Source: a virus. Taken from it: DNA of 31,869 nt. Made by a program: the position numbers and the translations under genes. The first letter of the stretch is position 1; every line of letters begins with the position of its first letter. Of this stretch, positions 4,066 to 9,073 are shown in pieces. The DNA is taken from the IMG/VR virus record IMGVR_UViG_3300017762_000034, positions 1-31,869 of that record; one strand, given 5' to 3'. Under the pieces are notes generated by a model, which was not told where the DNA came from, ran no database searches, and saw only the letters and a list, made by a program, of their open reading frames with translations.

Positions 4066-4073
4066 TATTTATC
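4066..4073 (-). promoter_or_regulatory. Late promoter GATAAATA ahead of the neck/packaging genes
   Basis: GATAAATA on the minus strand matches 7 of 8 positions of the T4 late promoter TATAAATA, the best match I found in the window. It overlaps the last codon of the oxygenase gene and lies 28 bases before the ATG of the small coiled-coil gene. It would let the gp13-gp16 block be transcribed separately from the enzyme couplet. Confidence 0.5.
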
Positions 4074-4713
4074 ATGTTGGAGAAACCCTATATGAATACT
4101 TATCATCAACAATTAATGAAGGCATGAAATTCATAGAGATAGAAACTCTACCATCTTTTCTGTTATCAGAATAACCATGGGTAAGATTAGATTGCCATAG
4201 CATCACCTCTCCTTCAGAAGGGTGCATGATAACATCACAGTTATATTTCCCTAGCTTATTCATGTCTGGTAGCAATGAAATTGATGGTGCTTGTGAATGA
4301 GTAGAACCATCTGGATGTCTGAAAAATAATGGTGCATGTCCTTCTTCATGACAAACATAATATGTTCCAGATATAAATGCATTAGTATGAAAATGTGGAT
4401 ACTGACTTCCACCAGTATCACATAAATTTAACCAGCTATCAGTAATAATCATTCTCTCAGGAAGATCATATCCCAAATCATCAGCAACAAAAGAAGTACA
4501 TTGATCTTCTAACCACTGTTTAAATTCTGACATTTCTTTTCTGTGTAGAAATGATCTACCAGATGTATTGTCGTAATGATGTAGGTTGTTATCCATTGCA
4601 TTAGTGATCATATTTTCACCTGTCATCATGTCGATAATTTCTTTCTTTACAACATCACTATTTGGGTAAAGTTCTCTACCAATAACTTTAGGAAAAATAT
4701 CAATTAAATTCAT
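4072..4713 (-). CDS. 2-oxoglutarate/Fe(II)-dependent oxygenase
   Basis: A 213-residue protein from ATG 4713 (MNLIDIFPKVIGRELYP). The ATG overlaps the stop of the upstream enzyme as TAATG, which decides this start over a longer frame at 4752. The fold is a double-stranded beta helix dioxygenase of the phage/marine type (TIGR02466/PF13759-like). Features seen: YPHFHTNAFISGTYYV at about 106-120 (His107/His109, first metal-ligand strand), PLFFRHPDG at about 128-136, and GEVMLWQSNLTHGYSDNRKD at 168-187 with His179 as distal Fe ligand. Arg189 (GRVSISMNF) is expected to hold 2-oxoglutarate. The family oxidises or hydroxylates a protein, nucleic acid or small molecule with O2 and 2-oxoglutarate; the substrate is unknown. 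Coupling to the U32-like/methyltransferase gene suggests a shared target. Confidence 0.88.
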   Translation of the reverse strand: MNLIDIFPKVIGRELYPNSDVVKKEIIDMMTGENMITNAMDNNLHHYDNTSGRSFLHRKEMSEFKQWLEDQCTSFVADDLGYDLPERMIITDSWLNLCDTGGSQYPHFHTNAFISGTYYVCHEEGHAPLFFRHPDGSTHSQAPSISLLPDMNKLGKYNCDVIMHPSEGEVMLWQSNLTHGYSDNRKDGRVSISMNFMPSLIVDDKYSYRVSPT

Positions 4714-6407
4714 TATTTTTTTAATACAAAAATGTTTATTCCATTCCACCAAGAATTTGTATCTTCAATTTCACCAGTAAGAATACTTCTTTCATACAAA
4801 ACTGTAATCTTATTCTCTTCAATAAAATCTTTTGTCGATGTCAATACACCATCAAGGTTTGCATCATCAACCACTAATATAAATTCATTCTCTGTATATT
4901 GAAGAATGTGATTTAAACAACTTCTCTGTACATTCAATTCATGATCTGCGTCATAAAAAATAGTATTTACTTTTTTATCTAAATTTTCTTCTGTAGCTTC
5001 ACGGATATCACCATTTAAAATTGCAATGTTGCTGTTGTCTGTCCATACAGATTTTACATTCTCAATGAAAGTTTCAATAGATCCTTCTTCATCATCCCAT
5101 GGAATGTCTTCTCTGATTGGTTTGATATCTACATCACGCCAATGATCTGCTGCATAAGCAGTAATATCATTACCTTGAATTGCTGCACAGAATGTGCTGC
5201 CATTAAACACACCAATTTCTAGATACTTTGTATCCTCGTAAGAACATAGATTGTTGAGGAAGTGCCTTACCTTATCAGAAGTTAGACCCTGAATGTCGTG
5301 ATCAAATTTTGACTTCCCTTCAATAGCTTTATCAATAGAGTCTAAACATCTGGTTACAAATGGGTGACATACTCTCTCTTGTTTTTTAAGATGTGCTTCA
5401 ACAACTGTATCGCAATAATTACATTCCCAGCAATCAAACTTACAATTTTTAATTTTATCTCTCCATATATCAATGGGACGATCTTTCATATTAAGATCTT
5501 CCATGTATACATTCATACGTGGGAAGAGAATTTCATCACCATCATTCCATTTTTTAATGATGTCCATAGACTCCATTAATCTGATAGCACTTTCTCTACC
5601 ATGCATTTTAAATACATCGATACCTAGATCAAGAAACTCTTGCCAGTCTTCTCTCCATGGCGGAATGTTTGCTGCTTTAAGAGATGCTGATGATTCTGTT
5701 ACATCCCAAGTAGAACAAGATACTCTACTGATTTCAGAATTAAAATATTGAGGACTATCATCTCTTGTGGCATTGTATTGATAATGCTCTGGCATAATAG
5801 GACAACCACCCCAGCAATTTTCATTAGCTAGCAATGATAGTTTTACTGGTTTATCAATAGATGCACAATATTCTTTTGCTTCGATAACTCTATTGAGAGC
5901 ATCTTTATCTCTCATTAAATCTCTATCAAGATTTACATAGTGAAATCCTGCTCTAGCACAAGCAACAATTTCATTTGCTTTTGTGACTTCTCTAAGGATT
6001 GTGTTTTTGATAAACAGTTCAGGAAATTCTCTTTGAATTTGTCCCGAAGAAACCCATGATGTGTGAGGTAGAGTTACAATACGAACACCCTTATCATACA
6101 AAGGTTTAAAATTTTCTATCCACAGATCTAGATTTTTTTGATCTGGTCTAATCCACATGTTATTAAATGTGGCAGACAAAGGAATACCTGTCTCTTGAGA
6201 AATAAACAATGCATTTCTTGTAGTTCCACTAACAGGATCAACTACAAAAATATCACCCATCGCATCCTGATTAAAAGGAGGAATACGACAGGTAAAATAT
6301 AGATCGTAAATTAAATGTTTATGCTCAATGAGGAATGGTATAAAAGTCTCCTCAGCAAATTTTTTATTGATCTTCGGGTTGATCGGCAGACTGAAGACGC
6401 TTGTCAT
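4713..6407 (-). CDS. Peptidase-U32-like domain fused to a SAM methyltransferase
   Basis: A 564-residue protein from ATG 6407 (MTSVFSLPINPK). A GTG at 6419 would add four residues; positions below count from that GTG. Residues ~20-345 resemble U32 TIM-barrel proteins: PLSATFNNMWIRPDQ, then GVRIVTLPHTSW, ARAGFHYVNLDRDLM and KLSLLANENCWGGCPIMPEH, ending in a Cys cluster CKFDCWECNYC (326-336). Known U32 members (RlhA, TrhP, UbiU/UbiV) are Fe-S enzymes that hydroxylate RNA or quinones; most are not peptidases. Residues ~380-568 are a class I methyltransferase: YLEIGVFNGSTF (SAM loop, 399-410), FYDADHELN (488-496) and ILVVDDANLDG, as in Methyltransf_24/CmcI-like enzymes. The start overlaps the upstream gene by 44-56 bases, and the stop overlaps the oxygenase start. 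Substrate unknown; a two-step modification enzyme is inferred. Confidence 0.8.
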   Translation of the reverse strand: MTSVFSLPINPKINKKFAEETFIPFLIEHKHLIYDLYFTCRIPPFNQDAMGDIFVVDPVSGTTRNALFISQETGIPLSATFNNMWIRPDQKNLDLWIENFKPLYDKGVRIVTLPHTSWVSSGQIQREFPELFIKNTILREVTKANEIVACARAGFHYVNLDRDLMRDKDALNRVIEAKEYCASIDKPVKLSLLANENCWGGCPIMPEHYQYNATRDDSPQYFNSEISRVSCSTWDVTESSASLKAANIPPWREDWQEFLDLGIDVFKMHGRESAIRLMESMDIIKKWNDGDEILFPRMNVYMEDLNMKDRPIDIWRDKIKNCKFDCWECNYCDTVVEAHLKKQERVCHPFVTRCLDSIDKAIEGKSKFDHDIQGLTSDKVRHFLNNLCSYEDTKYLEIGVFNGSTFCAAIQGNDITAYAADHWRDVDIKPIREDIPWDDEEGSIETFIENVKSVWTDNSNIAILNGDIREATEENLDKKVNTIFYDADHELNVQRSCLNHILQYTENEFILVVDDANLDGVLTSTKDFIEENKITVLYERSILTGEIEDTNSWWNGINIFVLKK

Positions 6408-7140
6408 TGAGTTGGTCACGGATTTGATCTAGGAGAGGGATGTTAAGGTTGTGTTCTACACCATGGAATGTAGGAACTTGAACGTCAGGAGATTCTGCAT
6501 ATGCTTGAAAATACTTCTCTGTTCTTCCTTGAATCTTATCCATAGAGATCTTCATCAAACAAGCATACTGAGATGCAACATCAAGAATACCAACTTGATC
6601 TTCTTCTTTCATCATAGCAATAGAATCCATGTTGCCAATACCGACTCTACCATTTGCCATAATATCTAAAGCAGCTTGTTTACCAAGTCTTGCAATCCAA
6701 TACTTTCTTTCATCTTCTTCATCCCATTCAACTGAATCCAATAGATCTTGTTTTGTTAGACCTTTGTCTTTAATATAATCTATGAAAACTTGAAGTTCAT
6801 ATTCTGCTTGACCCTTTCTTCTATTCCACATTTCTTTATCGAGTTCAGCAAACTCAACTTCAGCTGCAGCAAATTCAATATCAAACTCATCTCCATCTTC
6901 TGCTTGGAGTTTCTCTAGTAAAGCTTTATCACGACGCAAACGAATATCTCCCTTCTTTTCATCGAGGAGCATTTTTTCATATTGATGTGATCGATTCTCG
7001 ATCTCTAACAAAACTTGTTTTAGTTGTCGATCTTCTGTGACATGTGATTTGATCACATAGTCTAAAATTTGATTCTTCGACATACCAAGAGATACTCTTA
7101 CAGCAATATCTCTAATTTCTTTATCTGTAATTACACCCAT
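6364..7140 (-). CDS. Conserved-looking helical protein of unknown function, 258 residues
   Basis: Starts at ATG 7140 with MGVITDKEIRDIAVRVSLGM, a small helix-turn-helix-like opening (SKNQILDYVIKSHVTEDRQL). A long charged coiled coil follows at about 45-120 (LRRDKALLEKLQAEDGDEFD, AAAEVEFAELDKEMWNRRKG), then DLLDSVEWDEEDERKYWIAR, KQAALDIMANGRVGIGNMDS and an acidic C-terminus. No signal peptide, membrane segment or enzymatic motif is visible. Its position between fibre and neck genes suggests a virion or assembly factor (chaperone, scaffold), as for unnamed genes here in other cyanomyoviruses. Its last 44-56 bases also encode the N-terminus of the methyltransferase-fusion gene in another frame. 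The gap to the upstream gene is 20 bases with no promoter element. Role unknown. Confidence 0.75.
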   Translation of the reverse strand: MGVITDKEIRDIAVRVSLGMSKNQILDYVIKSHVTEDRQLKQVLLEIENRSHQYEKMLLDEKKGDIRLRRDKALLEKLQAEDGDEFDIEFAAAEVEFAELDKEMWNRRKGQAEYELQVFIDYIKDKGLTKQDLLDSVEWDEEDERKYWIARLGKQAALDIMANGRVGIGNMDSIAMMKEEDQVGILDVASQYACLMKISMDKIQGRTEKYFQAYAESPDVQVPTFHGVEHNLNIPLLDQIRDQLNDKRLQSADQPEDQ

Positions 7141-7160: not shown

Positions 7161-7925
7161 TTAGAACTTGATACCAGGAATTACCTCATCTCTAATTAAA
7201 ACACCCTGTTCGTTTTGGGTGTATTTATTTTCTTCTTTTGCCTGTTGTTCTGGCATTGGAAGACCAAGGTAGTTCTCATATAACCTATTTATCTTCCTAA
7301 TTGTATCGCAATCTGAGAACTCTTTTTTAATTTCTGAAGACTTAATGTAGAGTGCTTTTACATTTCTGTTGTAAGCATTTCTTTTTTCTTGAATTTTTGT
7401 TTTTAAATCAACTGGAGCTACACCCTTTGCTACTGACAATTCTCTGATGATGTAATCATTATTATTATCTACATCGTCATTTTGATATTCCCATGTCTTT
7501 TTCTCTAGTGCAGAAACACCTTCGTCTAAAGCTAAGAACCTTTGTTCAAAAGTTTGTTCTACAATTAACTTTGCTAGGAACTTCATAGTTCTTAGAATAG
7601 TATCATATCTCTTTTGTGTGACAGGAACTGCTACTTTAGGTCCTTCAGGTGCCATATCAGCATAAGATAGATTATCAAAATCTGCCTCATTTTTTAAATC
7701 ATCAGCAGGAACTTTAATGGTAGAACGAATATCACCAAGACTTCTCATACCAAATACTGCCATCTCTTTATCCATCTCGACAAATCTGTCTGATAAAGAA
7801 TTTATACCATTTACGTCTTCAGAATCCAACGAGAAAACATACCAATCAAGAACAGAGTTGATTGGTTGGTATGTAAGTAATTTTGTTAGATCGGGGAGTT
7901 TACCAACGAAATATCTTTTTGTCAT
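7161..7925 (-). CDS. Conserved-looking protein of unknown function, 254 residues
   Basis: Starts at ATG 7925, preceded by AGGAG seven bases upstream, the clearest ribosome binding site in the window. The sequence opens MTKRYFVGKLPDLTKLLTYQ, with mixed segments DWYVFSLDSEDVNGINSLSD and FGMRSLGDIRSTIKVPADDL. A mostly helical C-terminal half follows (YDTILRTMKFLAKLIVEQTF, EKRNAYNRNVKALYIKSSEI, CDTIRKINRLYENYLGLPMP). It has no repeats, unlike the fibre genes, and no catalytic motif I can name. The tight junction with the 381-residue fibre-like gene (TAA, two bases, ATG) suggests joint expression; a fibre-assembly chaperone or tail accessory protein is a guess from position and composition. Confidence 0.75.
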   Translation of the reverse strand: MTKRYFVGKLPDLTKLLTYQPINSVLDWYVFSLDSEDVNGINSLSDRFVEMDKEMAVFGMRSLGDIRSTIKVPADDLKNEADFDNLSYADMAPEGPKVAVPVTQKRYDTILRTMKFLAKLIVEQTFEQRFLALDEGVSALEKKTWEYQNDDVDNNNDYIIRELSVAKGVAPVDLKTKIQEKRNAYNRNVKALYIKSSEIKKEFSDCDTIRKINRLYENYLGLPMPEQQAKEENKYTQNEQGVLIRDEVIPGIKF

Positions 7926-7927
7926 GC

Positions 7928-9073
7928 TTATACTCCTGTGTAACCGCTAGCTAGTGTACCATATTCAATAGCAGCACCCGATGCTCTACCAGGTGTTCCC
8001 TGAGAGTTGAGACTGCCATTTAATCCAAATGAGTGTGTGGAGAAACTTACTTGACCACCAGTATTGTTCTGACCACCATCATACATACCGTTCATAAATC
8101 CATGTGTCATTCCCGTATGGAATGTTTCTTCACCAGTAGTTGCTGGTTTACTAACAGATCCTAGGTTAGAACCAGTAGTGTCATCTCTTCTTGAAAGTGC
8201 AGCGTTGGTTTGGTAACCACCTGCAGTGTTCCAATAAGAGAAATTAAGACGTGAGTTCCAAGTCTTGTTAGTTCCATCAGTGCCAGGAGCAGAACTCCAA
8301 CCAGACCACGATTGAGTTGACCAGTCAAAGCTGTATCCATTACCACCTTGCTTATACCAACCTTTAGTTTCGCCATAACCACATGCAGGGTTATCACCAC
8401 CAGTAGATCCGCCGCCACTAACAGTTGATACACTGTCATTAGTTAAGTCGTATCTGTCTGGGTTGTTGTTATTGTTTCCACAAACATATGCATACTTAAA
8501 GTCTCTCTTCATAACAGAAGTTCTGTTTCTTGAAGTCTGCATCGATGTTGCAGCACCAGCATTGGACTCAGTGACCATGCTGAAACTAGAAACATAGTTA
8601 CCAGTATTGTTCCAACCGTTTGCTGTGCAGAAAACATATGCTCTCATAGCAGAGTTTTGAGCACCTGCTGTGTATGCGTCAGACTGATCAATTCTGTCGC
8701 CAATGTTAGCGTTACTAAACGTAGCATGTGTACAACGGTTGATGTTTCTCCATGCAGCACCACCTCGGTAACCTGCTGCTGGATATCCTCTAGTAATATT
8801 AAAACCTTCGGCAAACTCAACAATGTTTTCCCAATAAGCGTTAGTACCATCTGATTTCAGTGTGGCTCCAACGGTGCTTGAATCACCAGCACTTGCAGGA
8901 AATTGCTCTGGTAAAGTTGAAAATGGCGCACCATTTACAAGCAAACTATTACTGCCAATATCAATATTACCACCGAAGGTACATGAACCATCCGTATTCA
9001 ACGAAATGTTGGGATTGGTTGAACTACCTGCGGCGGTATATTTAAGTTGATCTACTCTTAATTCTGATGCCAT
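7928..9073 (-). CDS. Fibre/adhesin-like virion protein, 381 residues
   Basis: Residues 1-83 are a fibre-type N-terminus: MASELRVDQLKYTAAGSS, then FGGNIDIGSNSLLVNGAPFS and a GDSSTVGATLKSDGTNAYWE repeat-like turn, as in cyanophage fibre proteins. Residues ~84-381 are rich in Gly/Ser/Asn/Thr/Trp and contain propeller-like units such as MRAYVFCTANGWNNTGNYVS, FKYAYVCGNNNNNPDRYD and FDWSTQSWSGWSSAPGTDG, with Cys at each YVC/VFC. The C-terminus (HTGMTHGFMNGMYDGGQNN) is Gly/His/Met-rich. I infer an exposed carbohydrate- or receptor-binding protein, possibly a beta-propeller. The ATG at 9073 follows a TCTAAATA late element and an AGGAG about 15 bases away. It is the smallest of the fibre-like genes and may be the distal tip. 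Confidence 0.7.
   Translation of the reverse strand: MASELRVDQLKYTAAGSSTNPNISLNTDGSCTFGGNIDIGSNSLLVNGAPFSTLPEQFPASAGDSSTVGATLKSDGTNAYWENIVEFAEGFNITRGYPAAGYRGGAAWRNINRCTHATFSNANIGDRIDQSDAYTAGAQNSAMRAYVFCTANGWNNTGNYVSSFSMVTESNAGAATSMQTSRNRTSVMKRDFKYAYVCGNNNNNPDRYDLTNDSVSTVSGGGSTGGDNPACGYGETKGWYKQGGNGYSFDWSTQSWSGWSSAPGTDGTNKTWNSRLNFSYWNTAGGYQTNAALSRRDDTTGSNLGSVSKPATTGEETFHTGMTHGFMNGMYDGGQNNTGGQVSFSTHSFGLNGSLNSQGTPGRASGAAIEYGTLASGYTGV

Follow-up and report, generated by a model that had tools for sequence, protein, structure and literature searches.

A U32-like/O-methyltransferase fusion of cyanophages overlaps a gene of the fiber-associated module and precedes a variable oxidative slot

We analyzed the virus record IMGVR_UViG_3300017762_000034 from IMG/VR over its 31,869 bases (hereafter the window), in which all listed genes lie on the minus strand, and found a 568-amino-acid (aa) protein (4713..6419, minus strand) that fuses a U32-like TIM barrel to an O-methyltransferase-type domain. 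The fusion occurs in the same number of phage records as GC353, the gene whose end overlaps its start, and is mostly followed by a gene of oxidative type, with repeated family swaps in that slot and start and stop codons almost always in close proximity; these observations are new here. We favor, at somewhat less than even confidence, the reading that the fusion is a tailoring enzyme that hydroxylates and then O-methylates a fiber-associated protein. More broadly, the results suggest that many marine cyanophages chemically decorate something linked to their fibers.

Distribution of the fusion and its association with GC353

A tblastn search detected the fusion in 123 phage records, in each of which a single place covers ≥80% of the protein. 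All are named as cyanophages or as phages of Synechococcus or Prochlorococcus, and relaxing the threshold to E ≤ 10 added one weak partial match only. A further 290 stretches with the fusion were confirmed among viral contigs. Because of these two sets, the recurrence goes beyond chance, and conservation outside this genome, on which an earlier reading made from the sequence alone (the sequence-only reading) depended, is borne out. An unannotated human-gut phage scaffold (MT835898.1, L088) showed a weak partial match to the U32-like part (23%, E 0.08).

GC353 (phrog_1409; 6364..7140, minus strand) was likewise present in 123 records, with first-word tallies of the record names equal to those of the fusion; the equality is one of totals and organism tallies rather than accession by accession. 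GC351 was found in 117 phage records. The neck protein was far commoner, with 1705 records, of which 378 have Synechococcus and 61 have Cyanophage as the first word of their names, so that the fusion is confined to a minority of such phages. In 34 of the 46 dereplicated loci with both genes, the GC353 stop lay beyond the conserved FSxPxN motif at the start of the fusion. Equal distribution with GC353 and overlap with its end lend weight to the argument, drawn from location, that the target may be linked to the virion.

Read along the minus strand, the window runs from large fiber-type proteins through phrog_1417, phrog_1604 and phrog_1409 to the fusion and a 2-oxoglutarate (2OG)-family protein, followed by phrog_580, head-tail adaptor Ad2, head closure Hc2, gp15 and the small terminase. 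The phrog assignments on either side thus agree with the placement between fiber and neck genes that had been proposed. GC numbers were assigned by homology to named phages: phrog_1604 is GC352 (7161..7925, minus strand; phrog match and locus comparison), and phrog_1417 is GC351 (7928..9073, minus strand), a G/S/N-rich protein called 'sericin 1 precursor-like' in named phages and a candidate substrate. Across 41 homologues, GC351 contained 2.3% Trp, compared with 0.9–1.5% in Ad2, GC352, GC353 and the fiber set. A 3492-aa protein also lies upstream of the fusion, beyond these three genes; collagen-like repeats as the substrate of a proline hydroxylase were considered and rejected, as the protein has no run of six G-x-y.

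An oxidative slot after the fusion

We classified the gene that directly follows the fusion wherever the 3' end of the fusion was present. Of 136 loci, four were duplicates (L102, L111, L114 and L134) and were dropped, leaving 132 different contigs or records, two of them without an open reading frame (ORF) in the slot. Loci were drawn from lists of the best 80 matches and so lean toward near relatives. The slot held a phrog_81-type 2OG protein in 50 cases, a P4H-type (PF13640) 2OG protein in 20, DUF6445 in ten, a tryptophan halogenase (PF04820, E 1.4e-90) in nine, phrog_274 in nine and phrog_2954 in four, and the remaining 30 had phrog_580, a fiber-like, another or no ORF. For most clusters the family name rests on few scanned members (the window and L023 for phrog_81; L049 and L127 for P4H-type; L043 for DUF6445; L066 for the halogenase; L082 and L147 for phrog_274; L074 for phrog_2954). 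An oxidative-type neighbor was present in 102/132 contigs, counting DUF6445 as such although it is a family of unknown function, and in 79/132 on firm profiles (the two 2OG families and the tryptophan halogenase), a count that leaves out phrog_274 (19.9 and 25.7 bits against a Pfam cut-off of 27), phrog_2954 (L074) and DUF6445. After dereplication these values were 44/63 and 33/63, respectively.

On a quick 63-row tree with some open forks, the family in the slot changed at least eight times among oxidative rows, and the slot switched between oxidative and other genes at least ten times. By position, oxidative families occupied 44/63 loci at +1 (a figure reached by construction, because the models used for the scan were built from that slot), 23/60 at +2 and 13/54 at +3, compared with 3/57, 2/49 and 2/47 at −1, −2 and −3. 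Start codons falling between 15 nt before and the third base of the fusion stop were found for 41 of 44 oxidative neighbors but only two of 19 others (Fisher p 1.7e-10, ignoring the relatedness of loci).

In the window, the junction reads TAATG, and its ATG opens the gene for the 213-aa 2OG-family protein (4072..4713, minus strand); both this ORF and that of the fusion had been described in the sequence-only reading and are present. The protein matches PF13759 (E 2.7e-15; 57 bits, cut-off 27) and TIGR02466 (E 4.4e-18), has 3bvc and 2rg4 as solved relatives and keeps H107, H109, H179 and R189 invariant in 13 rows. The canonical 2OG-Fe(II) site consists of HxD/E...H plus a 2OG-binding Arg, and the HxH of this protein (H107-x-H109) departs from it; as 3bvc and 2rg4 share HxH, the departure is a family trait. 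The proposed 2OG oxygenase stands as a TAATG-coupled gene of the PF13759 family, but with neither the canonical iron site nor a fixed partnership. Similarly, conserved adjacency holds in that other contigs also have a 2OG gene after the fusion, whereas elsewhere the slot is P4H-type, DUF6445 or tryptophan halogenase.

Domain architecture of the fusion protein

The fusion has a GTG start with an in-frame ATG at 6407, and its residues 54–568 match phrog_1458 (E 2.7e-235). Conservation was assessed in a 39-row alignment of full-length sequences, the others being 47–95% identical to that of the window. A control search with phrog_1458 also picked up an M. jannaschii protein.

The N-terminal part (residues 1–350 as modelled; 5370..6419, minus strand) forms a U32-like TIM barrel, the link to U32 being established through intermediate cellular proteins and by folding the domain alone. 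Folded alone from 49 rows, it reached a predicted local distance difference test score of 81 and a predicted template modeling score of 0.82, with low confidence around residues 200–250 and 300–350. The best solved structural match was the U32 peptidase Mk0906 (5d88; Z 16.6, 221 residues, 3.2 Å, model residues 4–281), ahead of MTHFR (Z 13.8), and Foldseek placed 5d88 sixth; structure prediction thus upheld the assignment. With the full-length model, the match list was filled by methyltransferases and long, poor alignments to pyruvate kinase. Sequence searches of the PDB with the whole fusion, TrhP, UbiU and a U32 profile returned no U32 structure, and phrog_36869 covers only residues 9–345. 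The likeness to 5d88 comes with 9% identity over the aligned part, and the 5d88 chain, of length 247, has no methyltransferase. Another phage U32-type protein, the Escherichia phage OLB35 'Peptidase' (BFVD A0A3G3MCS7), was also a structural match of this domain (E 2.4e-8, 17% identity).

The name of the best fold match and the position by fiber genes could point to a true protease that matures fiber proteins, as the U32 family name implies. However, the characterized U32 proteins treated in parts of PMC6747719 and PMC6599085 are iron–sulfur (Fe-S) proteins in hydroxylation, and a fused methyltransferase would not be expected in a protease, so we regard maturation by proteolysis as very improbable.

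Five conserved elements mark the domain (all minus strand). D165-R-D-L-M-R170 (5910..5927) is invariant in the 39 rows and is likened to the RELS of U32 proteins, with matching register in a profile comparison. C202-x3-C206 (5802..5816), candidate metal-cluster cysteines in a part of low model confidence, are invariant in the 39 rows; C235 (5715..5717) and C326-x3-C330-x2-C333-x2-C336 (5412..5444) are likewise invariant there and are conserved in a second alignment, of 29 diverse rows. K271-M-H-G-R-E276 (5592..5609) is invariant in the 39 rows. In the 29 diverse rows, conservation is ≥90% for all seven cysteines as well as for K271 and R275, and the cysteine layout is CX3CX28C plus CX3CX2CX2C.

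The profile of these 29 rows (A7) retrieved 5d88 from the PDB by sequence at E 5.3e-18. PF01136 matched 20/29 rows, the exceptions being three phage rows, L155–157, L184, L185 and L200; as three rows are of phages, 20/26 cellular relatives match. A profile of the domain found relatives in 5/201 genomes of one phylum, one of them a metagenome-assembled genome with a phage-like contig (L089), and a mixed profile found them in 12/243 and 26/245 genomes, seed genomes included. Directly upstream of three of the five nearest cellular relatives (L156, L157 and L184, not L155 or L185) lies a PF00891 O-methyltransferase gene. By eye, the relative at L155:1183-2505 adjoins what looks like a reductive dehalogenase gene accompanied by its anchor, as well as a gene resembling that of a dihydroorotate dehydrogenase, and L175:73-2457 is a 795-aa ORF with PF01136 at residues 483–542, a longer U32-like protein. 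L089 and L090, contigs of assembled genomes named Dehalococcoidia and Euryarchaeota, encode a domain of the phage type that is 67% identical; L089 has homologues of GC351–353 as well and so looks like a misbinned phage contig.

The C-terminal O-methyltransferase-type domain (METHYLTRANSFERASE; residues 363–568, 4716..5333, minus strand) matches Methyltransf_24 PF13578 over residues 400–519 (E 1.4e-6, 29.5 bits against a cut-off of 26.3), and the profile was found at E ≤ 0.01 in all six full-length relatives, five of them over the cut-off. E401-x-G-x3-G407, D490, H493 and D518-D519 are invariant in the 39 rows, so that an S-adenosylmethionine (SAM) motif (E401-x-G-x3-G407) is joined by an acidic triad (D490, D518 and D519) aligned to acidic or amide residues of YrrM, which we take to be metal ligands. 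Structural comparison of this part with O-methyltransferases gave Z of about 15–16, tied among MeT1, MycF, TomG, SpnH, NovP and TrmR (15.5 and 15.0 for TrmR), whereas sequence matches in the PDB were weak (3ntv E 0.011, YrrM/TrmR E 0.026, YecO E 0.45). The SAM methyltransferase claim of the sequence-only reading is supported by profile and fold.

These ties bear on the substrate. During infection, a fused analogue of TrhP and TrmR could introduce a methoxylated pyrimidine into the RNA of host or phage: TrmR belongs to the tied structures and to the three PDB sequence matches, a TrhP model matched 19/29 rows of A7 at E ≤ 0.01 (far under the model's own cut-off where seen), and the pairing has a precedent, as passages of PMC6599085 describe B. 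subtilis trmR in one operon with trhP1/trhP2 as well as trhO-trmR fusions. We nevertheless judge RNA modification quite unlikely, because the window contains no tRNA gene, the fusion sits in the virion block with its link to GC353, the cysteine motif differs and the oxidative neighbors would be left unexplained. The matches to MycF, SpnH, NovP and COMT-type enzymes, the tryptophan halogenase in the slot of nine contigs and the PF00891 neighbors of cellular relatives would instead suit an island whose product during infection is a metabolite that is hydroxylated, methoxylated and in some cases halogenated. Among the families scanned, however, we recognized no scaffold-building gene, and the overlap with GC353, a gene of the structural block, also counts against it; we hold this to be unlikely.

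Proposed activity and evidence against it

The hydroxylate-then-O-methylate reading draws on an order of steps known for U32 proteins and on the PF00891 genes beside cellular relatives. In the portions of PMC6599085 and PMC6747719 concerned, U32 proteins take part in hydroxylating pyrimidines or aromatic rings, and the hydroxyl so formed is the target of an O-methyltransferase. TrhP and then TrmR follow this order on tRNA, and a UbiU-UbiV assay tracks C6-hydroxylation and O6-methylation of the ubiquinone pathway (PMC6747719). By analogy, the U32-like domain, whose invariant cysteines probably bind an Fe-S cluster, would hydroxylate an aromatic or similar position, and the O-methyltransferase domain would then cap the new hydroxyl. 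The fusion, presumably expressed late, would act within an oxidative gene island that lies next to the fiber genes and comprises 2OG oxygenases, joined in certain lineages by a flavin halogenase. Given its ties to genes of the fiber module, the likeliest substrate would be a fiber-associated protein of the GC351–353 module. A more specific version, which strikes us as doubtful, has the fiber-linked island of T4-like cyanophages hydroxylating, O-methylating and halogenating the (perhaps aromatic) side chains of a fiber protein such as GC351. If this were true, the puzzling 2OG-oxygenase and prnA genes of cyanophages would serve virion-adhesin chemistry and not host metabolism.

Several results weigh against this tailoring activity. 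PF01136, the profile named as a check on the proposed U32 region, matched nothing in the window at thresholds up to E 10, nor any of eight phage relatives. The CX6CX15CX3/4C motif given in the relevant part of PMC6747719 does not fit the cysteine spacing. E162, C170 and C177 of TrhP are reported as essential in a section of PMC6599085; the fusion has no Glu at the Glu162 spacing (Leu194 stands eight residues before C202), and its second cysteine is at +4, compared with +7 for C170/C177. The cysteine regions fall in low-confidence parts of the model, and comparison of the profile with seven known U32 sequences was weak (probability 3.6), though the register was as expected. In GC351, Tyr (5.1% over the 41 homologues) is not above that of the neck protein Ad2 (5.6%). 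Finally, only 11 of 47 distinct 2OG places in six complete genomes (E ≤ 0.01) were within 10 kb of the fusion (Syn33 2/7, S-RIM12 2/8, P-HM2 0/7, S-ShM2 3/7, S-CAM4 3/11, P-SSM4 1/7), about twice the uniform expectation in a count that omits the phrog_274 gene adjoining the fusion in P-SSM4, and in S-SM1 and S-SSM7 runs of oxygenases follow fiber genes in stretches where no GC351–354 is annotated.

Because it gives no match to the PF01136 profile, lacks the known motif and has no Glu at the Glu162 spacing, the domain is not filed under PF01136. It is a divergent subfamily of the U32 superfamily rather than an orthologue of TrhP, RlhA or UbiU, so that of the earlier U32 claim the fold stands and the family match does not; the domain also lacks the CX6C spacing of known U32 hydroxylases.

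The scatter of 2OG genes and the S-SM1 and S-SSM7 runs also speak for loosely collected auxiliary genes at a variable post-fiber site, acting separately, for example in the 2-oxoglutarate/NtcA signaling proposed within Sullivan et al. 2010 (PMC3037559). From these runs and the genome-wide counts, oxidative genes appear to cluster after fiber genes more widely, with the fusion as the part tied to GC353. Against separate action, oxidative genes are frequent at +1 and +2 but stand at only about 5% in positions −1 to −3, start and stop codons lie close together beside oxidative neighbors, and the family changes at least eight times at one slot; we consider this account improbable. A fixed U32-2OG pair was itself rejected, as neighbors swap and none is near in P-HM2. 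In ACG-2014d, a tandem 2OG pair lies among small genes ~2.4 kb before a baseplate gene.

Comparison with known systems

The fusion belongs to the same family as PHROG 1458 / T4-GC 354, whose full length is matched and whose listing gives the function as unknown and does not name a U32-like domain. With TrhP, RlhA and UbiU-UbiV it shares the U32-type barrel, conserved cysteines and an R(D/E)L motif in matching register, but it differs from them in family profile, cysteine layout, the missing Glu and the fused methyltransferase. The methyltransferase domain is 9–16% identical to TrmR (YrrM), MycF, SpnH, NovP and COMT in the named rows, with no single closest relative. These features define a subfamily of the U32 superfamily, present in both phages and cellular genomes, whose cysteine layout is distinctive.

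Cyanophage 2OG-Fe(II) oxygenases and PrnA have been treated as metabolic genes in print; the window's own 2OG protein is phrog_81, other loci have phrog_61 or tryptophan halogenase in the slot, and the grouping with a U32-like/O-methyltransferase is described here. Sullivan et al. 2010 list, in the portion consulted, cyanophage 2OG oxygenases, prnA, a ferrochelatase-domain protein and denV, as well as ten virion structural proteins similarly distributed in nine cyanophages (PMC3037559). High numbers are given in passages on S-SCSM1 (24 2OG genes; PMC9602691) and S-CREM1 (ten 2OG genes plus prnA; PMC9964418). A literature search judged by titles and abstracts returned nothing on a U32 protein or fiber modification in these cyanophages. 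The island grouping and the fiber-module overlap turn the 2OG/prnA puzzle into a direct test on virion proteins.

Individual loci illustrate the variety of the slot. Five consecutive 2OG-type genes, one recognized only through phrog_274, are present in L127, and L121 has 2OG, halogenase, 2OG, DUF6445 and 2OG genes upstream of the fusion. Tandem arrays of ORFs of about 170–210 aa separate the fusion from phrog_580 in L127 (2513-5901, where the five 2OG-type genes are part of the array), L132 and L136. A flavin tryptophan halogenase directly follows the fusion in L064–L070, L073 and L075, with a 2OG gene farther on in several of them. The phrog_274 proteins (T4-GC 100; L082:9713-10210, L087:8707-9213, L147:7712-8233) go by the names 'DNA endonuclease V' or 'tail fiber protein', and their Pfam match is a weak one to 2OG-FeII_Oxy_3 (E 0.0015 in L082 and 2.3e-5 in L147, both below cut-off); they are probably misnamed and 2OG-type instead. 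Under the name 'Ferrochelatase' (phrog_2954, L074:7644-8276; T4-GC 615, S-SM1 L204:20634-21750), the L074 protein has no Pfam match and looks 2OG-type by eye.

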